Assembly (NCBI GenBank): GCA_947644195.1
Contig: CANRZB010000034.1
Location: 1 to 41,768 of the forward strand
Source: an uncultured Clostridium sp.
Lineage (GTDB): Bacteria; Bacillota; Clostridia; Lachnospirales; Lachnospiraceae
DNA length: 41,768 nt
Direction: 5' to 3'
In this document: one piece after another, positions 7,618 through 20,476 of the stretch
Position numbering within the stretch: the stretch's first letter is position 1
Layout of the letters: each line of letters starts with the position of its first letter
The notes under the pieces: generated by a model
Seen by the model: the letters and a program-made list of their open reading frames with translations, nothing else
Told to the model about the DNA's origin: nothing
Databases searched by the model: none
Program-made: the position numbers and the translations under genes

Positions 7618-10600
7618 TTACTTTCCCTGAGAGATTGTCGCAATATCCACCACCGACAGATTCCCCTCCTCGGAACTTTCCAAACTGGTCAATAACGCCG
7701 CTGCCGTGTCCAGGGAAGTCAGCACATTCACTCCCGTTTCAATCGCCGTGCGGCGGATCAGAAAGCCATCTTTCAGTTTGTCCCCATGCGTTGGTGTATC
7801 AATCACCAGATCAATCTGATGATCTAACAACAGGTCCATCAAGGTCGGCGCTTCCTCATTAATGCGGTTGACCGGAATCGTCAGCACACCATTCTCATTA
7901 AAAACTCTCGCCGTACTCCGGGTCGCAAAGAGATCATAGCCCAGTTTCTTGAAACGGCGGGCAATTTCCACTCCTTCCAGTTTATCCGAATCTTTCAGCG
8001 TAATGATCATCTTCTTATGTTTCGGCAGATCCACACCCGCTCCCATAAATGCCTTATACAGTGCTTCATCAAAAGACCTGGAAATCCCCAGACATTCCCC
8101 GGTAGATTTCATTTCCGGCCCCAGGCTGATTTCGGCACCACGCAGTTTCTCAAACGAGAAGACCGGCATTTTAATCGCCTTATAGTCCGATTTCTCTGCC
8201 AATCCCGGTTCATACCCCAGATCCCGGATCTTTGCGCCCAGGATTACCTGCGAAGCCAAATCCACAATCGGAATCCCGGTTACCTTGCTGATATATGGCA
8301 CGGTCCGGCTGGAACGAGGATTTACTTCAATAACATACACCTCATCCTCATACACAATAAACTGAATATTAATCAGTCCGATTACATGCAGCGAACGTGC
8401 CAATTTTCTCGTATAATCCACCAGTACCTTCTGTATTTTCTCAGAAATGGACTGCGCCGGATAGACCGAAATACTGTCTCCCGAATGGATCCCGGCACGC
8501 TCAATATGCTCCATGATTCCCGGAATCAGAATGTCTTCGCCGTCGCAGACCGCATCTACCTCGATCTCTTTTCCCATCAGATATTTGTCAATCAGGATCG
8601 GATGTTCCTGGTGATATCTGGTAACCACCGCCATAAATTCCCGGATATCGTCATCCGAGACAGCGATCTGCATCCCCTGTCCTCCCAGGACATAGGAAGG
8701 ACGGATCAACACCGGATAGCCCAGTTCATTAGCCACCTTTAATGCTTCTTCCGTTGTAAACACGGTATCCCCCTTTGCCCTTGGGATACAACACTGCTCC
8801 AGGATTTCATCAAACAGCTCCCGGTCCTCTGCCGCGTCTACATCCTCCGCACTGGTACCCAGAATTCTTACCCCCATCTTCATCAGGGATTCCGTCAGAT
8901 TGATCGCCGTCTGTCCGCCAAACTGTACAACCGCACCGTCCGGCTTCTCCAACCGCACGATATTCTCCACATCCTCCGGGGTCAACGGCTCAAAATACAG
9001 CTTATCCGCAATATCAAAATCCGTGCTGACGGTTTCCGGGTTGTTATTCACAATAATTGTCTCATACCCTTCTTTCGCCAATGCCCATACACTGTGAACG
9101 GAACAGTAATCAAACTCAATTCCCTGCCCGATCCGAATTGGCCCGGAACCAAGTACCATGATCTTCTTGCGGTCAGACTGCGCCTCCACCTCATTCACAC
9201 CGTCAAAACAACTGTAATAATATGGCGTTTCGGAAGCAAATTCTGCCGCACAGGTATCCACCATCTTGAAAGAAGCCGTCAGTCCATATTCTTCTCGAAG
9301 ATCCCGGATCTCTTTCTCTTCCCTTCCAGTCCATCGTGCAATCACACAGTCCGGAAATTCCAATCGTTTTGCCTCAGCCAGCAATTCCCGGCTAAGATTC
9401 CCCGCACTTGCCTTAATCTGTTTCTCCATCTCCACCAAAATTGCCAGTTTATCAATAAACCAGGGATCAATCATGGTAACTTCATGAATCTGCTCATAGC
9501 TGGAAATCCCCCGGCGCAGCAATTCCGCAATCAGATAAATCCTTCGGTCGTCAATCACCGGAAGCTGTTCTAACACTTCTTCATCGGTCAAATCATCATA
9601 CTCTCCCGTTTCCAGGCAGTCCACATGTTGGGACAGCGAGCGGAGCGCTTTCATCAAAGCTCCCTCAAAATTCGTACAAATACTCATTACCTCGCCGGTA
9701 GCTTTCATCTGTGTCGTCAGCGTTCGTTTCGCACTGATAAATTTATCAAACGGAAGCCTCGGCACTTTAACCACAACATAATCGAGTGCCGGCTCAAAAC
9801 TGGCATAGGTTTTTCCGGTTACGGCATTGGGAATTTCATCTAAAGTATATCCCAACGCAATTTTGGCAGACACCTTGGCAATCGGATAGCCCGTCGCCTT
9901 GGATGCCAGCGCCGAGGAACGGCTCACACGAGGATTAACCTCAATCACGATATACTCAAAGGACGTAGGATGCAGGGCAAACTGTACATTACATCCGCCG
10001 GTAATCTGAAGTTCATCAATGATGCGCAGCGCCGAAGTTCGCAGCATCTGGTATTCTTTATCTGACAAAGTCTGGGACGGTGCTACGACAATACTGTCCC
10101 CGGTATGCACGCCGACCGGATCCAGGTTTTCCATATTGCAGATCGTAATACAAGTACCATTGCTGTCCCGCATCACCTCATACTCAATCTCTTTCCATCC
10201 GGCAATACACCGTTCCACCAAAACCTGCCCTACCCGTGACAACCGCAGCCCATTCGACAGAATTTCCTCTAGTTCCTGACGGTTATGGGCGATACCACCG
10301 CCGGACCCTCCCAGCGTATACGCTGGACGCAACACCACCGGGTATCCAATCTCCTCTGCAAAGACAGCGCCATCCTCGATATTTTCAACGAGCAAGGATG
10401 CCGCACACGGCTCTCCAATGCGCTCCATCATATCCTTAAATTCCTGACGTCCCTCCGCATTTCGGATCGTCTGTGCCGTGGTCCCCAGCAGTCTCACACC
10501 ATGGCTGTCCAAAAACCCGGACTCTGCTAATTCCATTCCCAAATTTAATCCTGCCTGCCCTCCCATATTTGGCAGCAGGCTGTCCGGTTTTTCGACCTCA

Positions 10601-10833
10601 ATGATATGCTGCAGCACTTCTACCGTCAAAGGCTCAATATAGACTTTATCTGCAATGTCTTTATCCGTCATGATCGTGGCAGGGTTAGAATTAACCAGAA
10701 TGACTTCCATCCCCTCTTCTTTCAGGGAACGGCATGCCTGTGTTCCGGCATAGTCAAACTCTGCCGCCTGTCCGATCACGATCGGGCCGGAACCAATTAC
10801 CATCACTCTCTTGATACCCTCTAATTTTGGCAT
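7618..10833 (-). CDS. carB: Carbamoyl-phosphate synthase large subunit
   Basis: CarB joins bicarbonate, ammonia (channelled from CarA) and two ATP into carbamoyl phosphate for pyrimidine and arginine synthesis. The 1071-aa product has the expected two homologous halves, each with an ATP-grasp domain: VMVIGSGPIVIGQAAEFDYAG at the start and KIMVLGSGPIRIGQGIEFDYCS around residue 560. GGSGGGIAHN and GGQGMQIAV are the two glycine loops. A C-terminal MGS-like allosteric domain follows residue ~940. The start at 10833 (MPKLEG) follows GAGGAGTATC. Nothing in the sequence looks broken. The 145-bp gap to carA holds no promoter that I can defend, so carA and carB are probably one transcript. Confidence 0.97.
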   Translation of the reverse strand: MPKLEGIKRVMVIGSGPIVIGQAAEFDYAGTQACRSLKEEGMEVILVNSNPATIMTDKDIADKVYIEPLTVEVLQHIIEVEKPDSLLPNMGGQAGLNLGMELAESGFLDSHGVRLLGTTAQTIRNAEGRQEFKDMMERIGEPCAASLLVENIEDGAVFAEEIGYPVVLRPAYTLGGSGGGIAHNRQELEEILSNGLRLSRVGQVLVERCIAGWKEIEYEVMRDSNGTCITICNMENLDPVGVHTGDSIVVAPSQTLSDKEYQMLRTSALRIIDELQITGGCNVQFALHPTSFEYIVIEVNPRVSRSSALASKATGYPIAKVSAKIALGYTLDEIPNAVTGKTYASFEPALDYVVVKVPRLPFDKFISAKRTLTTQMKATGEVMSICTNFEGALMKALRSLSQHVDCLETGEYDDLTDEEVLEQLPVIDDRRIYLIAELLRRGISSYEQIHEVTMIDPWFIDKLAILVEMEKQIKASAGNLSRELLAEAKRLEFPDCVIARWTGREEKEIRDLREEYGLTASFKMVDTCAAEFASETPYYYSCFDGVNEVEAQSDRKKIMVLGSGPIRIGQGIEFDYCSVHSVWALAKEGYETIIVNNNPETVSTDFDIADKLYFEPLTPEDVENIVRLEKPDGAVVQFGGQTAINLTESLMKMGVRILGTSAEDVDAAEDRELFDEILEQCCIPRAKGDTVFTTEEALKVANELGYPVLIRPSYVLGGQGMQIAVSDDDIREFMAVVTRYHQEHPILIDKYLMGKEIEVDAVCDGEDILIPGIMEHIERAGIHSGDSISVYPAQSISEKIQKVLVDYTRKLARSLHVIGLINIQFIVYEDEVYVIEVNPRSSRTVPYISKVTGIPIVDLASQVILGAKIRDLGYEPGLAEKSDYKAIKMPVFSFEKLRGAEISLGPEMKSTGECLGISRSFDEALYKAFMGAGVDLPKHKKMIITLKDSDKLEGVEIARRFKKLGYDLFATRSTARVFNENGVLTIPVNRINEEAPTLMDLLLDHQIDLVIDTPTHGDKLKDGFLIRRTAIETGVNVLTSLDTAAALLTSLESSEEGNLSVVDIATISQGK

Positions 10834-10978
10834 GATACTCCTCCTCTCTGCGCTGCCCACGGCACAGATACTATTTTTTATCTACAAACCATTCCTGTAA
10901 GTCCTGATCTCCTATGGGTTATCGGAAAAAATTTGCCCACAAAATGGATTTCGTTTCATTCTCCTATTACAAGTAGGC

Positions 10979-12073
10979 TTACATCATTTTTATAAACTCA
11001 TCAAACAGTAGCTCCGAATCTTTCGGCCCGGCATTGGCTTCCGGGTGAAACTGTACCGTGCGGATCGGCTGATTCAGATACCACAATCCCTCCACGGTCT
11101 GGTCATTGACATTGACAAACCACGGTTTCGCCAACGCCGGATTTAACGAATCTGCGTCAACCACATACCCATGATTCTGGGAGGATATATATACCTTTCC
11201 GGTATCCAGATTCTTTACCGGATGGTTTGCCCCCCGGTGTCCGTATTTCATTTTATACGTCCTGGCATCGTGAGCCAACGCCATTAACTGATGCCCCAGA
11301 CAAATCGCAAAGATTGGAATCCCTGCATCGACCAGCAAACGGATCTGTGCAATGATGTCCACACATTCCGCTGGATCTCCCGGTCCGTTCGTAATCATAA
11401 TTCCGTCCGGGTTGCTTGCAATCACGGTCTCTGCGTCAAAATCACAGGGATAGACCGTTACCTCACAGCCTCGGTTTAACAGACACCGGATAATGTTTCT
11501 CTTGGTTCCCACATCAATGACCGCAACCTGATATTTGACTTTACCAGCTTCGGAACCAAGGTCACCCGGTTTGTAAACGACGGGCTGATCGCAGCTCACT
11601 TTTTTTACGACCCCGGTTACCTGGTATTCCCGTATCCGGGGCAGTACTTGCTCAAGATCCTGTGGCAGTTCTGTCGTAATCATGCCGTTCATCGTTCCCT
11701 TTTCTCGCAGAATTTTTGTTAGGGCCCTGGTATCAATGCCGTAGATTCCAGGAATCTCATACTGCTGTAAAAAATGGCTGATGGAATCCTCGGAACGGAA
11801 ATTACTCGGCATCCGTGCAAATTCCCGCACAATAAAACCATCCGGCCAGCCGCGCACAGACTCCATATCGTCGGCGGCAATTCCATAGTTACCAATCAAT
11901 GGATAAGTCATGGTAACAGCCTGTCCCGCATAGCTCGGATCAGTCAATACCTCCAGATAGCCTGTCATGGAGGTATTGAAGACGATCTCACTGATGACTT
12001 CTTTCTTCGCTCCAAAACTTTTTCCCTCAAAGACCGTACCATCCTCCAGGATTAAATATGCTTTTTCTATCAT
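10979..12073 (-). CDS. carA: Carbamoyl-phosphate synthase small subunit (glutamine amidotransferase)
   Basis: CarA hydrolyses glutamine and passes ammonia to CarB. The N-terminal CPSase_sm domain (YLILEDGTVFEGKSFGA, FNTSMTGYLEVLTDPSY) is followed by a class I glutamine amidotransferase domain with the nucleophile in FAICLGHQLMALA and the histidine/glutamate in VQFHPEANAGP. At about 364 aa it has the usual length. The start at 12073 (MIEKAY) is preferred because AAGGA lies 9 bp upstream; its ATG overlaps the TGA of the ANTAR gene by 4 bp (ATGA), implying translational coupling. This physical coupling to a nitrogen regulator suggests carAB is controlled with the glutamate genes. Confidence 0.96.
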   Translation of the reverse strand: MIEKAYLILEDGTVFEGKSFGAKKEVISEIVFNTSMTGYLEVLTDPSYAGQAVTMTYPLIGNYGIAADDMESVRGWPDGFIVREFARMPSNFRSEDSISHFLQQYEIPGIYGIDTRALTKILREKGTMNGMITTELPQDLEQVLPRIREYQVTGVVKKVSCDQPVVYKPGDLGSEAGKVKYQVAVIDVGTKRNIIRCLLNRGCEVTVYPCDFDAETVIASNPDGIMITNGPGDPAECVDIIAQIRLLVDAGIPIFAICLGHQLMALAHDARTYKMKYGHRGANHPVKNLDTGKVYISSQNHGYVVDADSLNPALAKPWFVNVNDQTVEGLWYLNQPIRTVQFHPEANAGPKDSELLFDEFIKMM

Positions 12074-12627
12074 AAGTTCCATTCCTTTCCATTTAGTTCT
12101 AAAATCATCGCCGCTGTTTCCACCATCGGATTACCACTGTCCATACTGATTTTCTGGATATAGCGGTAAGCTTCCTCCTCGGTCAGCTTATTTCTCTCAA
12201 TCAACAATGCTTTCGCTGTATCAATCGTCTGTTTTTCCCGATCGGTCCGAACCCGTGGGCGCTTATGTTTTTTCCGCCAGCGTTGATACTGTACCATCAT
12301 CATTTCCATGGTACTGAGAAAATCCTGCATCTGAAATGGCATGGCAACGGAAACCAGACCTCTCACATCATGTTCTGCCAATTTCGCCGGTGATGCTAAC
12401 AGTAACATCTGAAAACTCTCTGGCAGATATTCCTGAATCTCTGTAAAATACATATCTGAAAACCGATAGCCGCACACCACGATACCGCCCTCAGACTCAC
12501 TGGCAGCACTGATAATCTGCGCACCACTGTCACACACCTTATAGATATCGTATCCATTCCGAACCAGAAGTTTTCGGAGATTCTTCGCATCTTCCAGTTT
12601 GGGAAAAGCCACAATGATATCTAACAT
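12070..12627 (-). CDS. ANTAR-domain antiterminator with degenerate receiver domain
   Basis: ANTAR proteins bind RNA hairpins in leaders and stop terminator formation. The C-terminal ~60 residues fit the domain: TIDTAKALLIERNKLTEEEAY, then IQKISMDSGNPMVETAAMIL. Residues 1-110 look like a response-regulator fold but lack its key residues: the acidic pair at strand 1 reads DIIVAFPK, the phospho-acceptor position falls in VVCGYRF with no Asp, and the conserved Lys position reads AMPF. The protein is therefore unlikely to be controlled by phosphorylation and may respond to a ligand or partner. The gene follows the glutamine-synthetase-like gene by 17 bp; the ribosome binding site AGGAGG overlaps that gene's stop region, 13 bp from the ATG, an unusually long spacing. 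The likely RNA target is the gltB leader at 20388-20435. Confidence 0.88.
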   Translation of the reverse strand: MLDIIVAFPKLEDAKNLRKLLVRNGYDIYKVCDSGAQIISAASESEGGIVVCGYRFSDMYFTEIQEYLPESFQMLLLASPAKLAEHDVRGLVSVAMPFQMQDFLSTMEMMMVQYQRWRKKHKRPRVRTDREKQTIDTAKALLIERNKLTEEEAYRYIQKISMDSGNPMVETAAMILELNGKEWNL

Positions 12628-12644
12628 AAACCAACGCTAACCTC

Positions 12645-13958
12645 CTATATTTTTCCCAAATACCTTGCATGCTCCCACATAGTTACCTCTTTGCAATACT
12701 CATTCCACTCCTCATCCTTGGTATGGATGAGGTGACCGGAAATATGGTTCTCCAGGACATCCTGCAAAAAAACATCCTCCCGAAACAAACTAACTGCCTC
12801 ATATAAAGTACGCGGTAACGTCCCAATCTCCTGCTTGCCGTTATTTCCCTGCTCCTCGATGGAAGGCATTGGTTGAAGGCCTCGGCGAATTCCATCTAAA
12901 CCTGCCGCCAGACAAGAAGCGATAACCAGGTACGGATTCGCGGCGCCATCAGGACTGCGCAGAACGATCCTGGCTCCGTCTCCACCAATGGAGGTCAGAC
13001 GAATCAAAGGACTGTCATTGGTAAATGACCATCCCACCGTGACTGGCGCCAGATAACCAGGAATCAATCTCTTATAGGAATTAACGATCGGATTATTTAC
13101 CAAAGACATGCTGGCAATATGCTCCAGGATTCCCGCCATAAATTGATATCCCTCTTCACTGATTCCCCGCACACCGTCAGCATCCGTAAAGATATTCCTG
13201 CCGTCCTTGCTCAGGGAAAACGTATAATGGGCGCCCGATCCTTTTAAATGCTTCCGCGGTTTTGGCATAAACGTCGCATGCACTCCATGCCGCCTTGCCA
13301 CCGTTTTTGCCACCAATCTGGTCGTCATAATGCTGTCCGCCATCGTCAGTGCATCCTTGTAAGTAATCTCCAGCACATGCTGGGAAGCTTCGTCAGAATG
13401 ATAGGAAGATTCCACCTCGATATCCATATCTTCCAGATAAAGCACCATATCACGGCGGGTATTCTCTCCCCCGTCATTTGGGCCTACATCAAAATAGCCG
13501 CCCCGCTCATTAGAATGATTGGTCGGCTCTCCGTTTTCATCCAGGTCGAACAGAAAAAATTCATGTTTGATTCCTACATCAAACACATATCCCATTTCGT
13601 TCGCCTCTGCGATCACTTTCTTTAAAATATAGCGGCTATCCCCGATAAACGGGCTGCCATCCGGCTTTACCACGTCGCACAGGAAACGGGCCACTTTGCC
13701 GTTCTGAGGACGCCATGGAAAGATCACAAAGGTATCCAGATCCGGCACCAAAAACAACTCTTCATAGCCGGTTCCACGGAATCCATCAATGGCGGCGCAG
13801 TCAAACCGGCACCGCCCATCCAAAATTTTATCAATCTGACTGACCGTCATCGCCACATTTTTCAGTGTACCGCTGATATCAGTAAACTGAAGGCGGATAA
13901 ACTCAATATCCTCCTCCTTGATCAGGTCCAGTATATCCTGCCTGGAATACTTAGCCAT
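12645..13958 (-). CDS. Glutamine synthetase homologue with degraded active site (probable pseudoenzyme)
   Basis: The 437-aa product aligns end to end with type I glutamine synthetase (MAKYSRQDILDL, IRLQFTDISGTLKNV, PDLDTFVIFPW, HGVHATFMPKP, NSYKRLIPGY, RSPDGAANPYL). Compared from memory with B. subtilis GlnA, many catalytic positions are changed. The FDGSSIEGF loop reads FDCAAIDGF. The metal ligand pair GPEPEFF reads GIKHEFF (Lys131 for Glu, Glu133 kept). HHEVAPGQHE reads YHSDEASQHV (Ser188 and Val195 for two Glu ligands). The flap glutamate in GYEAP is Leu303, the Arg in NRSPLIR is Asp315, and the Glu in VEVRS is Val332. His244 and Arg334 remain. The frame is intact, so the protein is probably made but unable to synthesise glutamine. 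The adjacent ANTAR gene suggests a sensory role. Start at 13958 follows AGGAAAGG. Confidence 0.9.
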   Translation of the reverse strand: MAKYSRQDILDLIKEEDIEFIRLQFTDISGTLKNVAMTVSQIDKILDGRCRFDCAAIDGFRGTGYEELFLVPDLDTFVIFPWRPQNGKVARFLCDVVKPDGSPFIGDSRYILKKVIAEANEMGYVFDVGIKHEFFLFDLDENGEPTNHSNERGGYFDVGPNDGGENTRRDMVLYLEDMDIEVESSYHSDEASQHVLEITYKDALTMADSIMTTRLVAKTVARRHGVHATFMPKPRKHLKGSGAHYTFSLSKDGRNIFTDADGVRGISEEGYQFMAGILEHIASMSLVNNPIVNSYKRLIPGYLAPVTVGWSFTNDSPLIRLTSIGGDGARIVLRSPDGAANPYLVIASCLAAGLDGIRRGLQPMPSIEEQGNNGKQEIGTLPRTLYEAVSLFREDVFLQDVLENHISGHLIHTKDEEWNEYCKEVTMWEHARYLGKI

Positions 13959-14053
13959 CCAAAACACCTTTCCTTTCTATCCAATTGCTGCATCTCATTC
14001 TGCGGAAAACTGCCCGTAGAAATCCTTTTTATACCAATTTACACATTCATCCT

Positions 14054-14082
14054 ATTATACACGCAAATAATAACAGTGTCAA
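14054..14082 (-). promoter_or_regulatory. Consensus promoter of the glutamine-synthetase-like/ANTAR/carAB genes
   Basis: On the minus strand TTGACA (14082-14077) and TATAAT (14059-14054) are exactly 17 bp apart, matching the housekeeping sigma-A consensus at every position. Transcription would start near 14047 and give a leader of about 90 nt. I see no terminator in that leader. A possible weak hairpin (TCTaCGG...CCGCAGA) has one mismatch. Confidence 0.85.
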
Positions 14083-14099
14083 AATTTTTTCACGTTAGC

Positions 14100-15581
14100 C
14101 TATTCCAGATTCGTGTATCCCATCAGGCTCTCATCTACTTCTCTCGCTACCTGGCGGCCCTCCTGGATCCCCCATACCACCAGGGACTGCCCCCGGTGCA
14201 TATCTCCTGCCGTGAAAACTCTATCCACGTTGGTATGATAGCTTCCAGCCTCCGTTTCCACGTTGGTACGCGCATTGCATTTCACACCGAACGCTTTTGC
14301 CACATAATCCTCCGCCCCCAGAAAGCCTGCGGCGATCAATACACAATCTGCCGGAATCTCAAACTCGCTGTCTGGAATTTCCACCATATTCATCCTGCCC
14401 GTCTCTGCATCTTTCTTGGGTTCTAAGCGAACTAACTTTACTTTCTTCAGTTTTCCACCTTTATCGGCAACAAATTCCTTGACCGTCGCCTGATAGATCC
14501 GGGGATCCTGCCCATAGACAGCGATCGCCTCTTCCTGCCCATAATCTGTCTTGCAGATGCGGGGCCATTCCGGCCATGGGTTATTGTCGGCCCGTTCCTC
14601 TGGAAGTTTCGGCATCATCTCCACCTGCACCACAGACTTTGCTCCCTGTCGGACGGCAGTACCGACACAGTCATTGCCCGTATCTCCGCCACCGATCACT
14701 ACTACATGTTTTCCCTTGGTATCAATCCAACCATCCTTCTTTCCGGTCAACACATGCTTCGTGGAACGGGTCAAGTAATCCACCGCAAAATAGATCCCAT
14801 CCGCTTCCCGTCCCGGTGCCTTGATATCGCGAGGATTGGACGCACCACAGCATAGGATCACGCTGTCATATTCCTTTAAGAGATCTTCCGCTTTGATTTC
14901 CTTTCCAACATTCGCATTTACCACGAAATGTACGCCTTCCTCTTCCATAATCTTCTGCTTGCGGTCAATGACCCATTTCTCCAATTTCATATTCGGAATT
15001 CCGTACATCAACAGTCCGCCAATATGATCATTTCTCTCGTACACCGTCACCTCATGGCCGCGGCGGTTCAACTGGTCTGCCGCCGCCAGCCCGGAAGGCC
15101 CGGAACCTACAATCGCCACCTTTTTCCCGGTACGCACCGTTGGCGGTTCTGCCTCCATCCAGCCCTGTTCATATCCGTTTTCTATGATAAAGTGTTCATT
15201 CGCCTTACAGCTTACCGGCGTATCATTCAATCCGCAGGTACAGGCAGCCTCGCAAAGTGCCGGACAAACCCGGGAGGTAAATTCCGGAAAATTATTTGTC
15301 TGACGCAGCATCTGCAATGCCTTTTTATCATTCCCCAGATAGAGTAAATCGTTCCACTCCGGCACCAGATTATTGAGTGGACAGCCGGAAACCATGCCAC
15401 CTAACATCATACCGGACTGGCAAAACGGTACGCCACAGTTCATACAGCGCGCCGCCTGTTCCCTGCGGTCTTTATCCCGCATCGGAACATGAAATTCATC
15501 ATAATTCTTTATTCTTTTTCGCGGCTCTACGGCCACATTATCCTGTCTGTCATATTCCATAAATCCCGTTGGTTTTCCCAT
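14100..15581 (-). CDS. gltD: Glutamate synthase (NADPH) small subunit
   Basis: GltD oxidises NAD(P)H and passes electrons through FAD to the large subunit. The 493-aa product shows the N-terminal iron-sulfur cysteines (Cys46, 49, 54, 67 in CMNCGVPFC...GCPLNN, and Cys106, 110, 114, 116 in [13 protein letters not shown]). An FAD-binding [17 protein letters not shown] and a second nucleotide fold [15 protein letters not shown] follow, with a C-terminal [17 protein letters not shown]. The start is placed at 15581 ([12 protein letters not shown]) because GAGGAG lies 4 bp upstream; a frame extension of 12 codons upstream has no ribosome binding site and runs into a hairpin. The gene follows gltB and shares its transcript. 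Confidence 0.96.
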
Positions 15582-15617
15582 AATTCTCCTCATTTCTGCG
15601 TTGCTGGTTATGCTCAT

Positions 15618-15653
15618 ACCGGCAAAGTATTACAACGCCAATACTATGCCGGT
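15618..15653 (-). other. Intercistronic hairpin between gltB and gltD
   Basis: ACCGGCAaAGTATT pairs with AATACTaTGCCGGT around the loop ACAACGCC, giving 13 of 14 paired positions. There is no U-run, so it is not a typical terminator. It may act in mRNA processing or stability, or set the GltB:GltD ratio. Confidence 0.65.
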
Positions 15654-15698
15654 AACAAGGTTACACAAAAAGGGATACCCCCATCTTCAAAATGAATC

Positions 15699-18600
15699 TC
15701 AACTATTTTTATGGGCATAGAACGCCTCAATCTGCGCCTGCTCATAACTCAGTCCACGTTCTTCCATCTGTGCAATGAGTTGTAACATCCTGCTATAATC
15801 ATAGGAAATAATCTTCTTAAATTTCGGAAGATATTCACTGAAATTCTCTAATACCATTTTACCCTTCGGCGAACCGGTTGCCGCCACATGTTCCTCAATC
15901 ATCTTCTTCAGCTCAATGACGTCATATTTATCGGTCACGGTTTCCGAAGAAACCAACTCCTTATTCAACTTGAGATAGAGGTTGCTGTCCTCATCCAGCA
16001 CATATGCCACACCGCCGCTCATACCAGCGGCAAAGTTCTTTCCGGTTGCTCCCAGAACTACGACACGGCCTCCCGTCATATACTCACAACCATGGTCTCC
16101 GACACCTTCCACCACAGCGGTTGCCCCGGAATTCCGCACGCAGAAACGCTCTCCGGCAATTCCGTTGATATATGCCTTTCCACTGGTAGCTCCATAGAGT
16201 GCTACATTTCCAACGATAATGTTTTCCTCTGCTGCAAAACCTGCTCCTGCTGGCGGATAGACCACAATTTTACCGCCGGACAATCCCTTGCCCATATAAT
16301 CGTTAGAATCCCCGACCAGTTCCAATGTCAGCCCTTTCGGGATAAAGGCACCGAAACTCTGTCCTCCGCTGCCATGACATTCTATCGTAAAAGTATCCTC
16401 TTCCAGCGTATCACGGAACTTTCGGGTAATCTCAGAACCCAGGATCGTTCCCAGAGAACGGTTCAGGTTCGTGACAGTAACCGATAACTTTGTTTTCTCC
16501 CCACTTTGTAATGCTTTCTTTAATTTCGGCAGGAACACTTTGGCATCCATGGTTTTCTCCAACGCAAAATCATACAAATTCTTAGGGTTAAACTTATTCT
16601 CCTTCCGTTCCCCTGCAAAACTGGCGTCAATGATTGCTTCCAGATCCACAGAACCAGTGGTTTCCGGTAAATTTTCCTTTACTTTCAACAGATCCGTGCG
16701 GCCGATTAAATCATCTACTTTCCTGATTCCCAATGCCGCCATATACTCCCGTAATTCCTGTGCAATAAACCGCATAAAGTTTTCCACATATTCCGGTTTC
16801 CCCTGGAACCGTTTCCGCAGTTCCGGGTTCTGGGTAGCTACGCCCACCGGACAGGTATCCAGATTGCAGACACGCATCATCACACATCCCATCGTCACTA
16901 ACGGCGCAGTCGCAAAACCATATTCCTCGGCACCCAGCAGAGCAGCCACCAGAACATCCCGGCCCGTCATCAACTTTCCATCCGTTTCAACCCGTACCCG
17001 GGAACGCAGTCCATTCATAATCAAAGTCTGATGGGTTTCCGCTAACCCCAGTTCCCACGGAAGCCCTGCGTTGTAGATAGAACTGCGGGGAGCTGCCCCC
17101 GTTCCACCATCGTGGCCCGAAATCAGAATGACGGCTGCCCCAGCTTTTGCAACACCGGCTGCCACGGTACCTACTCCTGCTTCCGACACCAATTTCACAG
17201 AGATTCTCGCATCCTGGTTACTGTTCTTGAGATCATAAATCAACTGTGCCAGATCCTCAATCGAATAGATATCATGATGCGGCGGTGGAGAAATCAGGCT
17301 GACTCCCGGCGTGGAATGTCTGGTCTTTGCCACCCATGGATAAACCTTTCCGCCTGGCAGATGTCCGCCCTCTCCCGGCTTAGCGCCCTGCGCCATCTTT
17401 ATCTGGATCTCCTTGGCGCTAACCAGATAGCGGGACGTTACGCCGAACCTGCCGGATGCCACCTGCTTAATCGCAGACGAACGGTCCTCTTCCTGCCCTG
17501 CGGTTTCCAGACGTTCCAAACTCTCGCCACCCTCGCCGCTATTCGACTTGCCATGTAGATGGTTCATCGCAATCGCAAGCGTTTCATGCGCCTCCTGAGA
17601 AATGGATCCATAAGACATTGCGCCCGTCTTAAATCGTTTCACAATTTCATCGACACTCTCCACCTGGTCGATCGGGATTCCTTTTTTAGGAAACTGGAAG
17701 TCCAACATACTCCGCAAAGTCATCTGATGCTCTTTCTCATCCACAGTTTTTGAATACTGCTTAAACAATTCATAATTACCGTTCCAGGTAGACTGTTGCA
17801 GAAGATGGATGGTCTCAGGATTATACAGATGTTCCTCTTTATGACCACGCGCCTTATGTTGGCCGCGGTTTTCCAAATTCAAGTCAACATGCAGGCCCAA
17901 TGGATCAAACGCACTGGAGTGCAAACGGTCTACCTGCTCCTGGATATCCTCTAACGTAATTTTTCCCGTTACACTAACCGTATCTGTGAAATATTTCTCA
18001 ACCACATCCGATGCGATTCCGATCGCCTCAAAAATCTTGGATCCCTGGTAGGACTGAATCGTGGAAATTCCCATTTTAGATGCAATCTTGACAATCCCAT
18101 GCAACACAGCGGCATCATAATCATTAACCGCAGCATAGTAATCCTTATCTAACATACCGTGGTCGATCAGCTCCCGTATCGTGGCATGTGCCAGATAAGG
18201 GTTAATCGCACAGGCACCGTAGCCCAACAGCGTGGCAAAATGGTGTACCTCCCTCGGTTCTGCCGTTTCCAGGATCATGGCAACACTGGTTCTCTTTTTC
18301 GTCGTTACCAGATGCTGCTGCATCGCTGATACCGCCAGCAGGGACGGAATCGCCACATGGTTCTCATCCACACCGCGGTCGGTCAGAATCAGAATATTGG
18401 CGCCTTCCCGGTAAGCCCGGTCAGCCTCCAGACACATCCGGTCAATCGCTTTTTTCAGGGATGTGTTCTTATAATAAATCATCGGAATCTCTTCACACCG
18501 GAATCCATTCTTATCCATGCTCTTGATCTTTAGGAGATCCGTATCGGTCAGAATTGGATTATGCACTTTTAACATGCGGCAATTTTCCGCCGCTTCTTCC

Positions 18601-20339
18601 AGAATATTTCCTTCCTGCCCGATATAGAAACTGGTCGAAGTAACGATTTCCTCCCGGATACAATCAATCGGCGGGTTCGTTACCTGCGCAAACAGCTGCT
18701 TAAAATAATGGAACAATGGCTGTGATTTATCGGAAAGCATCGGTAATGGAGAATCTGTCCCCATTGCCCCAATCGGCTCTGCTCCCGTTTCCGCCATCGG
18801 CAGAATAGAATTTCTATATTCCTCAAAAGTATATCCAAAGGCTTTCTGCAGGCGTGCGCGTTCTTCTCCATCCAATTCCGTTACTTTCTGGTTTGGAATC
18901 CGAAGTTCACTCAGCGTTACCAGATTATTATTTAACCATTCTCCATATGGCTGACGGGAAGCATAGGTTTCTTTCAAGACATCATCAGCAATCAATTCCC
19001 CCTTTGCCAAATCAACCAGAAGCATCCGTCCCGGTCTCAAACGATCTTTTTTTACAATCTTCTCTGGTGGAATCTCACAGACGCCCACTTCGGAAGACAG
19101 AATGAGCTGCCCATCTGTCGTAATATAATAGCGGGAAGGTCGCAGCCCGTTACGGTCCAACACGGCACCCATTTTATCGCCATCGGAAAATAGAATCGCT
19201 GCCGGACCATCCCACGGCTCCATCATGGTCGCATAATATTGGTAAAAATCCCGTTTTTTCTGGCTCACGCTCTTGTCATTCTCCCATGGTTCGGGAATGG
19301 TAATCATGACTGCCAGGGGCAAATCCATTCCACTCATTACCAGAAATTCCAGGGTATTATCCAGACGGGAGGAATCCGATCCACTCGGATCTACCACTGG
19401 CAGAACCTTATGGAAATCATCCTTTAGATACGGACTTTCCATATTTTCCTCGCGGGCAAGCATTTTATCTGCATTGCCGACAATCGTATTGATCTCACCA
19501 TTGTGCACAATAAAGCGATTGGGATGCGCCCTTTTCCAGCTTGGATTGGTATTCGTACTGAACCTGGAGTGTACCAGGGCAATCGCCGAAACATAGTCCG
19601 GACTTTGCAAATCGCTGAAAAACTGCCGTAACTGCCCAACCAGAAACATTCCTTTGTATACAATCGTTCTGCTCGAAAACGATACTACATACGTATCATC
19701 ATTACTCTGTTCAAACACACGGCGCGCCACATAGAGCTTACGATCAAAATCCAGTCCCCGGTCGACATCCTCAGGACGTTTGACAAAAGCCTGCATAATA
19801 CATGGCATACAGTCTAACGCCTTACTTCCCAGGACATCCGGCGTCACCGGAACCGTTCTCCATCCCAGAAAAGTCAGTCCCTCTTTTTCCACAATGACTT
19901 CCAGCATCTTCTTGGCCTGATTGCGCTTCAACTCATCCTGCGGAAAGAAAAACATACCAATTCCATAATCCCGTTCCTCGCCTAACTCTATCCCTAAAGG
20001 CTTCACATGCTTTTTGAAAAATTTATGGGAGATCTGAAGCAGGATACCAACACCGTCCCCGGTCTTTCCCTCTGCATCTTTACCGGCACGATGCTCTAAC
20101 CGCTCCACAATATCCAGGGCACCCGATACCGTATCGTGTGTCTTATTCCCCTTAATATTCACGACAGCGCCAATTCCACAGTTATCATGTTCAAACCGAG
20201 GATCATATAATCCCTTCTTTTTCTGATCAATTACATTTGCCGCTGACTGATGGCTAACCGAAGCAAACGCGCCTGTCTCCAGCCCAATCGCAGCATCGGC
20301 TGTTTCTGTCTGTACAGTAGTTCTCTTTGCTTTTACCAT
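15699..20339 (-). CDS. gltB: Glutamate synthase (NADPH) large subunit
   Basis: GltB transfers the amide of glutamine to 2-oxoglutarate, giving two glutamates. The 1546-aa product has the class II glutamine amidotransferase domain with the catalytic residue in HDNCGIGAVV (Cys54 from the chosen start), a propeptide somewhat longer than usual. The central domain follows, then the FMN-binding synthase domain with SGHDGGTGAAPRSS and the 3Fe-4S cysteines in CVMMRVCNLDTCPVGVATQ. The C-terminal beta-helix (GXGXG-type repeats such as GGRVVVLGATGKNFAAGMSG) ends the protein. The start at 20339 (MVKAKR) follows GGGAGG; the upstream frame extension overlaps the leader and is unlikely. Its leader contains a terminator preceded by a candidate ANTAR hairpin, so expression is probably set by transcription antitermination. 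Confidence 0.97.
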   Translation of the reverse strand: MVKAKRTTVQTETADAAIGLETGAFASVSHQSAANVIDQKKKGLYDPRFEHDNCGIGAVVNIKGNKTHDTVSGALDIVERLEHRAGKDAEGKTGDGVGILLQISHKFFKKHVKPLGIELGEERDYGIGMFFFPQDELKRNQAKKMLEVIVEKEGLTFLGWRTVPVTPDVLGSKALDCMPCIMQAFVKRPEDVDRGLDFDRKLYVARRVFEQSNDDTYVVSFSSRTIVYKGMFLVGQLRQFFSDLQSPDYVSAIALVHSRFSTNTNPSWKRAHPNRFIVHNGEINTIVGNADKMLAREENMESPYLKDDFHKVLPVVDPSGSDSSRLDNTLEFLVMSGMDLPLAVMITIPEPWENDKSVSQKKRDFYQYYATMMEPWDGPAAILFSDGDKMGAVLDRNGLRPSRYYITTDGQLILSSEVGVCEIPPEKIVKKDRLRPGRMLLVDLAKGELIADDVLKETYASRQPYGEWLNNNLVTLSELRIPNQKVTELDGEERARLQKAFGYTFEEYRNSILPMAETGAEPIGAMGTDSPLPMLSDKSQPLFHYFKQLFAQVTNPPIDCIREEIVTSTSFYIGQEGNILEEAAENCRMLKVHNPILTDTDLLKIKSMDKNGFRCEEIPMIYYKNTSLKKAIDRMCLEADRAYREGANILILTDRGVDENHVAIPSLLAVSAMQQHLVTTKKRTSVAMILETAEPREVHHFATLLGYGACAINPYLAHATIRELIDHGMLDKDYYAAVNDYDAAVLHGIVKIASKMGISTIQSYQGSKIFEAIGIASDVVEKYFTDTVSVTGKITLEDIQEQVDRLHSSAFDPLGLHVDLNLENRGQHKARGHKEEHLYNPETIHLLQQSTWNGNYELFKQYSKTVDEKEHQMTLRSMLDFQFPKKGIPIDQVESVDEIVKRFKTGAMSYGSISQEAHETLAIAMNHLHGKSNSGEGGESLERLETAGQEEDRSSAIKQVASGRFGVTSRYLVSAKEIQIKMAQGAKPGEGGHLPGGKVYPWVAKTRHSTPGVSLISPPPHHDIYSIEDLAQLIYDLKNSNQDARISVKLVSEAGVGTVAAGVAKAGAAVILISGHDGGTGAAPRSSIYNAGLPWELGLAETHQTLIMNGLRSRVRVETDGKLMTGRDVLVAALLGAEEYGFATAPLVTMGCVMMRVCNLDTCPVGVATQNPELRKRFQGKPEYVENFMRFIAQELREYMAALGIRKVDDLIGRTDLLKVKENLPETTGSVDLEAIIDASFAGERKENKFNPKNLYDFALEKTMDAKVFLPKLKKALQSGEKTKLSVTVTNLNRSLGTILGSEITRKFRDTLEEDTFTIECHGSGGQSFGAFIPKGLTLELVGDSNDYMGKGLSGGKIVVYPPAGAGFAAEENIIVGNVALYGATSGKAYINGIAGERFCVRNSGATAVVEGVGDHGCEYMTGGRVVVLGATGKNFAAGMSGGVAYVLDEDSNLYLKLNKELVSSETVTDKYDVIELKKMIEEHVAATGSPKGKMVLENFSEYLPKFKKIISYDYSRMLQLIAQMEERGLSYEQAQIEAFYAHKNS

Positions 20340-20387
20340 GTGTCTTCCTCCCGTTTCAAAATTTCTGTGTTTTCCATCCAAAGGCAG

Positions 20388-20435
20388 AAAAAAAAGAGGT
20401 CAGTAAACTAGCCGTTTACTGAACCCCTTTGTTCA
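20388..20435 (-). promoter_or_regulatory. gltB leader attenuator: terminator overlapped by an A1/G4 hexaloop hairpin
   Basis: On the minus strand the leader starts near 20441. Six nucleotides later comes TGAAC-AAAGGG-GTTCA (20435-20420), a 5-bp stem with a six-base loop having A at position 1 and G at position 4, the known ANTAR recognition pattern. Its 3' arm is also the 5' arm of an intrinsic terminator: AGGGGTTCAGTAAAC, loop GGCTA, GTTTACTGACCTCT, then eight T. The two structures exclude each other. Because the promoter lies just upstream and no promoter is seen between the T-run and the gltB start, this terminator must be overcome for gltB to be expressed. I do not see the second (P1) hairpin common in ANTAR leaders. 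Confidence 0.7.
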
Positions 20436-20447
20436 TCAACTGAAATT

Positions 20448-20476
20448 ATCATAGGAAATTTTTCGATAAAAGTCAA
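20448..20476 (-). promoter_or_regulatory. gltB promoter
   Basis: TTGACT (20476-20471) and TATGAT (20453-20448) with a 17-bp spacer on the minus strand, in a very AT-rich stretch between holA and gltB. The predicted start near 20441 places the attenuator immediately at the 5' end of the RNA. Confidence 0.75.

Follow-up and report, generated by a model that had tools for sequence, protein, structure and literature searches.

A glutamine synthetase-like protein without catalytic residues and its ANTAR partner: a candidate nitrogen switch in Lachnospiraceae

The question here is how nitrogen is sensed by clostridial ANTAR proteins whose receiver cannot be phosphorylated. It was raised by a 41,768-nt stretch of DNA from an uncultured Clostridium sp. 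(the window), for which the original prediction had joined a dead glutamine synthetase (GS), a phosphorylation-independent ANTAR protein and a gltB attenuator into one circuit. The answer leaned towards here is that a GSI-derived amino-acid receptor gates an ANTAR antiterminator of the GS/GOGAT genes, probably in response to glutamine. Residue losses and retentions, purifying selection, linkage, co-occurrence and the attenuators before gltB and GSIII were all read from sequence.

The locus and the gltB leader

Features of the locus are listed in Table 1. The gltB ORF spans 15699-20381, and the ATG at 20339, preceded by GGAGG, is the likelier start. The gltB promoter opens with its -35 box at 20476, where the interval of the original prediction ends, and by promoter spacing the transcript is expected to start near 20441. 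The GS-like/ANTAR pair is predicted to have its own transcript, from the 12/12 promoter at 14082-14054; neither this promoter nor the overlap of the carA ribosome-binding site with the end of the ANTAR gene had been mentioned in the original prediction. No hexaloop element was found between that promoter and the GS-like gene, and an Rfam scan of the window at gathering scores gave no match.

Table 1. Features of the GS-like/ANTAR locus (window coordinates)
Feature	Position	Strand	Basis
carB	7618..10860	-	ORF; named by sequence and place; homologue adjoins carA in genus loci
carA	10979..12082	-	ribosome-binding site within 3' end of ANTAR gene
ANTAR antiterminator with pseudo-receiver	12070..12627	-	Pfam ANTAR, 56.7 bits
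GS-like protein (ORF 12645-13967, ATG 13958)	12645..13958	-	Pfam, 331.9 bits
Predicted promoter of GS-like/ANTAR/carAB transcript, TTGACA-17-TATAAT	14054..14082	-	12/12 consensus matches
gltD, glutamate synthase small subunit	14100..15617	-	TIGR01317, above cut-off
gltB, glutamate synthase large subunit	15699..20339	-	Pfam GATase_2, Glu_syn_central, Glu_synthase, GXGXG
Predicted intrinsic terminator, stem 20422-20400, U tract to 20388	20388..20422	-	5' arm overlaps antiterminator hairpin
Predicted ANTAR-type antiterminator hairpin, stem UGAAC/GUUCA, hexaloop AAAGGG (A1, G4)	20420..20435	-	-6.3 kcal/mol folded alone
Predicted gltB promoter, TTGACT-17-TATGAT	20448..20476	-	10/12 consensus matches

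The gltB leader folded with a minimum free energy (MFE) of -20.5 kcal/mol (z -4.84), the MFE fold lengthening the terminator stem upstream to 20430, and a 5-bp hairpin with the hexaloop AAAGGG overlapped the terminator. The same promoter-proximal hexaloop hairpin with an overlapping terminator was present in all 21 readable gltB leaders of the genus, with G4 in 21/21 and A1 in 20/21 (G in L168). Terminator arms lay close together in 19 of these leaders (insertions in L168 and L176), and the inner hairpin stem was almost invariant across 19 aligned leaders; two of five covariation measures for the terminator were not clearly above shuffles (both-side changes, 59/500; further pair types, 95/500). 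Each leader carried one hexaloop, against two in the classical ANTAR target, and a dual-hexaloop search for a second one before gltB returned no consistent hairpin. With a promoter, a terminator and a hexaloop hairpin in place, the gltB attenuator of the original prediction is genuine, and its recurrence in 21/21 leaders makes it more than a chance feature.

The claim that the parts lie together held for the window, but not in general: gltD and the GS-like gene were no more than 1500 nt apart in 5/19 genus loci and 14/100 other family loci (contig ends uncorrected). Membership of carAB, also claimed, was likewise local: at the same distance limit, carA was near the GS-like gene in 18/19 genus loci against only 2/100 other family loci, and carAB looks like operon company of the GS-like/ANTAR pair. 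For the GS-like/ANTAR pair itself the caution holds that operon partners are able to persist without contact.

The GS-like protein and the ANTAR protein

The GS-like protein contains Gln-synt_N and Gln-synt_C domains, has a GSI fold (48% identity to B. subtilis GS, 4s0r), and scores 379.6 on the GlnA equivalog, below the cut-off of 429.15. Compared with 4s0r, four of six metal ligands are changed (E132K, E189S, E196V, E333V), as are the catalytic flap residue (E304L) and R316 (R316D); E134, H245, R298, R321 and R335 are retained. The four metal-ligand losses and the loss of Glu304 were common to all 19 genus copies read, taken from loci picked by their ANTAR gene, and their frames were open. 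Judged by its residues, the protein is catalytically inactive through residue loss, in agreement with the description of a dead GS.

The GS-like protein has neither Glu304 nor Arg62, the residues by which feedback-inhibited GS grips the side chain of glutamine (PMC9249791), and because they are gone, glutamine specificity would need new contacts. In active GS, the counterparts of R298 and E134 touch the bound inhibitor at its carboxyl group and at a nitrogen (PMC9249791; residue matching assumes a numbering offset of 2, our own interpretation of that paper).

The GS-like gene is under purifying selection in the genus (median dN/dS 0.074 from the 67 of 171 genus pairs with finite dS; carA, 0.068). 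The rival view of a redundant enzyme gene that decays as selection on it relaxes, with GSIII doing the work and no new function gained, would fit the presence of GSIII in 198/200 family genomes and the several separate GSI loss patterns across the family, but is very improbable given a dN/dS of 0.03-0.12 among the six most closely related genus pairs, open frames with identical losses in 19/19 genus copies, and the sparing of R298 and E134 by the losses. Relaxed selection as the sole cause was rejected on dN/dS.

The ANTAR protein is the only one found in the 3.44 Mb genome. Its ANTAR domain is C-terminal (residues 130-176; 56.7 bits, cut-off 27.3), and its profile matches EutV at 1.2e-13. The absence of a phosphorylatable receiver, part of the original prediction, was borne out: in the EutV alignment the phosphoacceptor Asp is replaced by Gly53 and the conserved Lys by Met96, and there was no Pfam receiver match in the protein. 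The G4-contact residues of EutV (Tyr164, Lys149, Glu160) correspond to Y154, K139 and E150, and the plug residue Met172 to M162; other RNA contacts are altered (R142K, K143Q, K147T, R168Q, N173D, R175G, R177P). Position 154, Tyr in the window, is His in most of the relatives listed. Of the 19 genus ANTAR proteins whose C-terminus was read, 18 finished with KEW plus 2-4 residues, and in the exception (L060) carA is farther off. KEW was rejected as evidence, at the protein level, of a GS-binding C-tail, the underlying DNA being the carA ribosome-binding site; KEW was the only conserved tail seen, and no GlnR-like C-tail was found in the ANTAR protein.

Pairing and targets across the family

The family survey comprised 200 Lachnospiraceae genomes from 199 genera. 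Since the genus loci were ANTAR-chosen, ANTAR linkage was counted on 100 loci chosen by GSI alone (of 124 further GSI places, 100 + 2 were read and 22 mid-ranked ones left out; 16/24 ANTAR-only genomes were read). Co-occurrence, which had been put forward as a check on the circuit, was nearly complete: the ANTAR protein was present in 131/132 genomes having this GSI, 44/45 ANTAR-free genomes were also without this GSI (at the thresholds used), and the ANTAR gene lay within 400 nt downstream of GSI in 98/100 loci.

Loss of catalysis was followed on a tree of 165 rows (genus copies thinned from 19 to 7). A class control was made up of the best 30 matches to an intact query and so leans to intact enzymes. 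A metal ligand was missing in 27/165 rows (at least 10 state changes, quick tree) and E304 was altered in 56/165 (at least 16 changes). Metal-ligand losses were clustered, the tree needing 10 changes where 200 shuffles needed 21-27, and because they cluster, ten changes on a tree with some weak branches is a lower count. Among the 27 rows without a metal ligand, R298 was kept in 27, E134 in 26, E304 in 2, and E189 and E196 in 12 each. Metal ligands have been lost in several lineages with the ANTAR pairing kept.

These counts bear on a rival explanation in which gltB and GSIII are under ANTAR control but the signal comes from elsewhere (a PII protein, or a ligand bound directly by the pseudo-receiver), and the GS-like protein does something different, for instance forming another kind of gamma-glutamyl bond or associating with GSIII. 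In its favour, contact between the GS-like and ANTAR proteins is a prediction, and operon partners need not touch. Ligases of the GS fold are expected to require metal ligands; the repeated loss of these ligands with pairing kept, together with the near-complete co-occurrence and the joint absence of both partners from 44/45 ANTAR-free genomes, makes this explanation unlikely, if the strongest competitor to a GSI-derived receptor.

GSIII is separate from GSI, and the sole GSIII-less genome more than 90% complete has a canonical GSI. The gltB leader, named originally as the target, is ANTAR-type, but the putative target set is larger: a model from gltB leaders alone found GSIII leaders in 15/28 genus genomes, the window genome included (E 0.0015-0.06; low-scoring matches L338, L348, L352 and L355, with no motif or no nitrogen gene, were left out). 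The 14-mer GAACAANGGCGTTC occurred at 86 places family-wide, at least 31 of them followed within 450 nt by a listed GSIII and 14 by GSI (the same count with all 133 GSI places); a control 14-mer, with 33 places, was upstream of a listed GSIII or of GSI at none. The 14-mer preceded a listed GSIII in 30/155 genomes with ANTAR against 1/45 without (Fisher p 0.004; the ANTAR-free genome was G247), and its presence anywhere in the genome was weakly tied to ANTAR (64/155 against 11/45, p 0.054).

Ahead of the GS-like/ANTAR pair itself, the element was present in 0/16 window-genus loci with enough upstream sequence. In other genera, 33/35 elements before GSI were without a P1 candidate. Coupling of an element before GSI to intact catalysis (33/103 intact against 2/26, Fisher p 0.013) disappeared once kinship was taken into account, independent pairs giving a median p of 1, and the link is no more than a hint.

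The proposed circuit and known systems

In the preferred reading, the GS-like protein would be a former GSI enzyme turned amino-acid receptor, retaining residues that hold glutamate or glutamine by its backbone, with metal and catalytic residues gone; its ligand is probably glutamine. When glutamine is plentiful, the GS-like protein would bind it and, touching the ANTAR protein, retain the latter, much as in NasS-NasT or feedback-inhibited GS-TnrA. A drop in glutamine would free the ANTAR protein, which, as the sole ANTAR found in the genome, is the candidate to bind the hexaloop hairpins that the gltBD and GSIII transcripts carry near their 5' ends. As hairpin and terminator share bases, the ANTAR-bound hairpin would block the terminator and the GS/GOGAT genes would be transcribed. 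Since the working enzyme, GSIII, is encoded at another place in the genome and has the element before it too, the circuit would govern GS/GOGAT as a whole.

The opposite polarity, in which the ligand-bound GS-like protein activates ANTAR like feedback-inhibited GS with GlnR, is improbable, as GS/GOGAT genes are expected to be on during nitrogen limitation. Both signs do occur among the known GS partners, since feedback-inhibited GS activates GlnR, by setting two GlnR side by side, yet abrogates TnrA DNA binding (PMC9249791). Against activation, nitrogen limitation is the condition in which NitR reportedly switches GS/GOGAT genes on (PMC6316151), and NasS restrains its ANTAR partner, as AmiC-AmiR may (PMC3795266). 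Restraint of ANTAR by the glutamine-bound GS-like protein is the polarity adopted here.

In Clostridium saccharobutylicum, the gene order is presumably glnA-nitR-gltAB. Its ANTAR protein NitR is a reported antiterminator of GS/GOGAT genes under nitrogen limitation (PMC6316151), and the C. thermocellum cluster Clo1313_2030-2036 links an ANTAR protein with GS and glutamate synthase genes (PMC4676874). The window ANTAR protein shares this link; what differs here is that residue loss has inactivated the GS, that a GSIII encoded elsewhere is the working GS, and that the GS-like/ANTAR pair is preceded by a consensus promoter of its own. The original prediction knew of no description of the combination: GS-ANTAR-GOGAT is in print in these two papers, but the papers searched gave no inactive GS partner for an ANTAR protein.

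In NasS-NasT and AmiC-AmiR, a ligand-binding protein holds the ANTAR protein until its ligand state changes (PMC3795266; AmiC, PMC3369936). As in NasS-NasT, the GS-like and ANTAR genes are adjacent and the ANTAR partner is without a phosphoacceptor; unlike in either system, the proposed receptor has a GS fold, and its contact with ANTAR is one that we infer. Feedback-inhibited GS of Gram-positive bacteria is a glutamine sensor for TnrA and GlnR, and GS shares an operon with GlnR (PMC9249791). The window GS is similarly the proposed glutamine sensor of a gene regulator, but the regulator is an RNA binder, not a DNA binder, the GS is without catalytic residues, Glu304 and Arg62, and no GlnR-like tail was found. 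If true, an enzyme-derived nitrogen receptor would be wired to RNA, not DNA.

The leader resembles the EutV target in that bases of its A1/G4 hexaloop hairpin also belong to an intrinsic terminator (PMC3369931), and residues aligned with the main G4 contacts of EutV are retained in the window protein; unlike in EutV, there is a single 5'-proximal hexaloop, the phosphoacceptor Asp is absent and several backbone contacts are changed. EutV is said to need contact with both hexaloops to stop termination, and the same paper, on the structure of EutV with RNA, anticipated sites with a single hexaloop (PMC8934654), of which the leaders described here are candidates.

With the pair in 131/200 genomes, the circuit would be a likely nitrogen-assimilation switch across much of Lachnospiraceae. 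More tentatively, and with slightly less than even confidence, Lachnospiraceae GSs may repeatedly have become dead receptors gating an RNA-binding antiterminator via single 5'-proximal hexaloops before gltB and GSIII. Evolution seems to have split GS sensing from catalysis in several lineages with the partner kept, and sensing would therefore be testable without confusion from removing an active GS.

A GS-ANTAR fusion suspected in G070 proved to be a CTP synthase-ANTAR fusion. CTP synthase-ANTAR fusions occur in two related genomes and, if the circuit is true, would represent a second glutamine-using enzyme as an ANTAR-domain sensor.

Conserved pairing of an altered glutamine synthetase with an ANTAR protein

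The window carries on its minus strand, in order, holA, a leader, gltB, gltD, the gene for a type I glutamine synthetase (GSI) homologue (the GS-like protein), an ANTAR antiterminator gene, carA and carB, the last named solely by its sequence and position. The same strand has two strong promoter-like sites (see table), which suggest two transcripts, the second probably made up of the GS-like gene, the ANTAR gene, carA and carB, because the ANTAR gene contains the carA ribosome-binding site at its 3' end. In the genus, ANTAR proteins have a conserved KEW end, which also serves as this site (window 12060-12100). The window genome (3.44 Mb, 97.5% complete) yielded one ANTAR protein and two GS-family genes, the GS-like gene and, on another contig, GSIII (~705 codons), a separate working-type GS.

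Both GS domains are present in the GS-like protein, which shares 48% identity with B. subtilis GS and scores 379.6 with the GlnA equivalog model, below the cut-off of 429.15. Four of the six residues that we take to be the GSI metal ligands are altered (E132K, E189S, E196V, E333V), as is the catalytic flap Glu304 (to Leu), with E134, H245, R298, R321 and R335 retained. The same five losses, with minor variants, were found in 19/19 genus copies examined. The gene is under purifying selection, with dN/dS of 0.03-0.12 in the six closest genus pairs and a median of 0.074 (from the 67 of 171 pairs for which dS was finite), similar to that of carA (0.068). Roles of Glu304, Arg62 and Arg316 in GS were taken from PMC9249791, as were those of Glu134 and Arg298, using an inferred numbering offset of 2. 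At one locus, L044 (3671-5311), the inactive GS carries, around residue 215, an in-frame insertion some 100 codons long.

Among 200 Lachnospiraceae genomes (the family), GSI was detected in 132 (E <= 1e-120) and GSIII in 198; the only genome more than 90% complete that lacks GSIII, G134, has a canonical GSI. An ANTAR gene followed on the same strand within 400 nt at 127 of the 129 GSI genes whose surroundings were examined, 29 of which had been picked via their ANTAR gene; the unbiased count, from loci chosen by GSI, was 98/100. A profile built from GSI-linked ANTAR proteins matched 155/200 genomes (E <= 1e-15), giving 131 genomes with both proteins, 1 with GSI only, 24 with ANTAR only and 44 with neither. 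Examination of 16 of the 24 ANTAR-only genomes revealed a more diverged GSI adjoining the ANTAR gene in 13, CTP synthase-ANTAR fusions in 2 and a stand-alone ANTAR frame in 1. GSI and ANTAR proteins therefore come and go together across the family. Since gltD (5/19 genus loci, 14/100 other family loci) and carA (18/19 and 2/100) vary in their presence within 1500 nt of the GSI gene, the constant part of the cluster is the GSI-ANTAR pair.

Coordinates of promoter-like sites in the window and of ANTAR frames outside GSI pairs
Feature	Location	Strand	Remarks
Promoter-like TTGACT-17-TATGAT	window 20476-20448	minus	ahead of gltB leader
Promoter-like TTGACA-17-TATAAT, perfect	window 14082-14054	minus	between gltD and GS-like gene
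CTP synthase with C-terminal ANTAR domain	L278:4628-6382 (genome G070)	minus	Pfam 51.9 bits
Apparent C-terminus of a like fusion, at contig end	L279:2319-2618 (genome G114)	minus	
Stand-alone ANTAR frame, 74 codons	L280:2429-2650 (genome G172)	minus	precedes aminotransferase gene (Pfam)

Catalytic residues of GSI across the family

All 11 checked sites were canonical in 57/129 GSI; among the 100 GSI-chosen loci, 51 were canonical and 14 had lost a metal ligand. On a tree of 165 GSI sequences, built without the catalytic columns and with 7 of the 19 genus copies, 27 lacked one or more metal ligands, with at least 10 state changes, only a rough figure given the quick method and some low supports. 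The 200 shuffles gave 21-27 changes, so the losses are both repeated and clustered on the tree. Glu304 was altered in 56/165, with at least 16 state changes. Residue loss is one-sided: among the 27 GSI with metal-ligand loss, R298 was spared in 27 and E134 in 26, followed by R321 (24), R335 (22), H245 (19), E333 (16), E132 (15), R316 (14), E189 and E196 (12 each) and E304 (2).

For comparison, 30 GSI loci were taken from a class-wide search, 29 from outside the family; being best matches to an intact query, they are biased towards intact proteins. The six metal ligands were intact in all 30 and the full set of 11 sites in 29; in 14/30 an ANTAR gene followed within 200 nt. The pairing thus seems to predate the loss of catalysis.

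The hexaloop-terminator element

Among 22 gltB starts found in 28 genus genomes, 21 had a readable leader, and all 21 contain G(A/G)AC-hexaloop-GTTC, a hairpin of the ANTAR target type, with G4 in all 21 and A1 in 20. It lies 3' of a promoter-like sequence (scored in the window, judged by eye elsewhere) and 5' of a terminator whose 5' arm overlaps it. In 19 aligned leaders, 95.7% of terminator cells were paired. Three measures (paired cells, double-changed cells and covariation score) exceeded all 500 shuffles; the two measures counting pairs and types did not. The inner hairpin stem is nearly unvarying, as it should be if it is recognised by a protein. Insertions in the gltB leaders of L168 (1299-1409) and L176 (2396-2484) separate the terminator arms and leave the hairpin in place.

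A model built from gltB leaders only and run over the 28 genus genomes recovered these leaders and GSIII leaders in 15/28 (E 0.0015-0.06; C66:8872-8926, E 0.012, in the window genome). Terminator sequences differ between GSIII and gltB, whereas the GAAC...GTTC hairpin is identical. In three genus genomes (L339, L342 and L343, position about 1501) the element also lies ahead of a gene pair encoding a circularly permuted ATP-grasp protein and an alpha-E protein (Pfam run on one of the three), a possible third target.

Exact copies of the 14-mer GAACAANGGCGTTC were found at 86 places in 75/200 family genomes (reversed-pattern control, 28). At least 31 of the 86 places lie 85-245 nt upstream of GSIII, among the GSIII matches listed; for listed GSI the figures are 14 places and 44-211 nt. 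None of 33 control 14-mer places lay upstream of either. The 14-mer preceded a listed GSIII in at least 30/155 genomes with the ANTAR protein versus at least 1/45 without (p 0.004). In G247 (C6:19271-19284) it lies 172 nt upstream of GSIII, with no ANTAR protein detected in that genome. The element was found before GSI in 0/16 cases in the genus and, outside it, in 2/20 with metal-ligand loss, 23/54 fully canonical and 10/49 with other sites changed; a trend linking it with canonical residues was lost under a kinship test.

Antitermination and its proposed control

EutV, the ANTAR protein used for comparison, has targets with two hexaloops (PMC3369931). Here the gltB hairpin starts no more than about ten bases from where the transcript is expected to begin, which leaves no space for another, and a second candidate was absent in 33/35 elements before GSI in other genera; antitermination through one hexaloop is therefore a prediction. 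The window ANTAR protein retains Tyr164, Lys149 and Glu160 of EutV (as Y154, K139 and E150) and the Met172 plug (as M162), whereas R142, K143, K147, R168, N173, R175 and R177 of EutV are all altered. In the EutV alignment, the receiver phosphoacceptor Asp is Gly53 and the Lys is Met96; with that Asp absent, the predicted input must come from something besides a kinase acting on it.

By analogy, the best-supported source is the one in the original prediction, in which the GS-like protein would be a ligand receptor controlling the adjoining ANTAR protein. This would combine release of the NasS-NasT type, in which a receptor next to the ANTAR protein frees it upon ligand change (a like mechanism is proposed for AmiC-AmiR; both from PMC3795266), with glutamine sensing as by GS towards TnrA and GlnR (PMC9249791). 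The case for glutamine in particular is weakened because two residues that hold its side chain in active GS, Glu304 and Arg62 (PMC9249791), are lost. The ANTAR protein would be held while the receptor is ligand-bound and released at nitrogen limitation, when it would turn GS/GOGAT genes on, a polarity inferred from physiology and from NitR induction under nitrogen limitation as reported in PMC6316151.

ANTAR targets ahead of glutamate and glutamine synthase genes (PMC3369931, PMC3369936), NitR (PMC6316151) and the C. thermocellum cluster (PMC4676874) are already in print. Our literature search, with most subscription journals and the primary NitR papers outside it, found no description of an inactive GS with an ANTAR partner in the text available, and no paper on CTP synthase with ANTAR. 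The GSI-ANTAR pair was not detected at the thresholds used in either genome with such a fusion. The complete fusion gene is divergent from a GSIII gene, and genes resembling the G172 aminotransferase gene come after both fusions.
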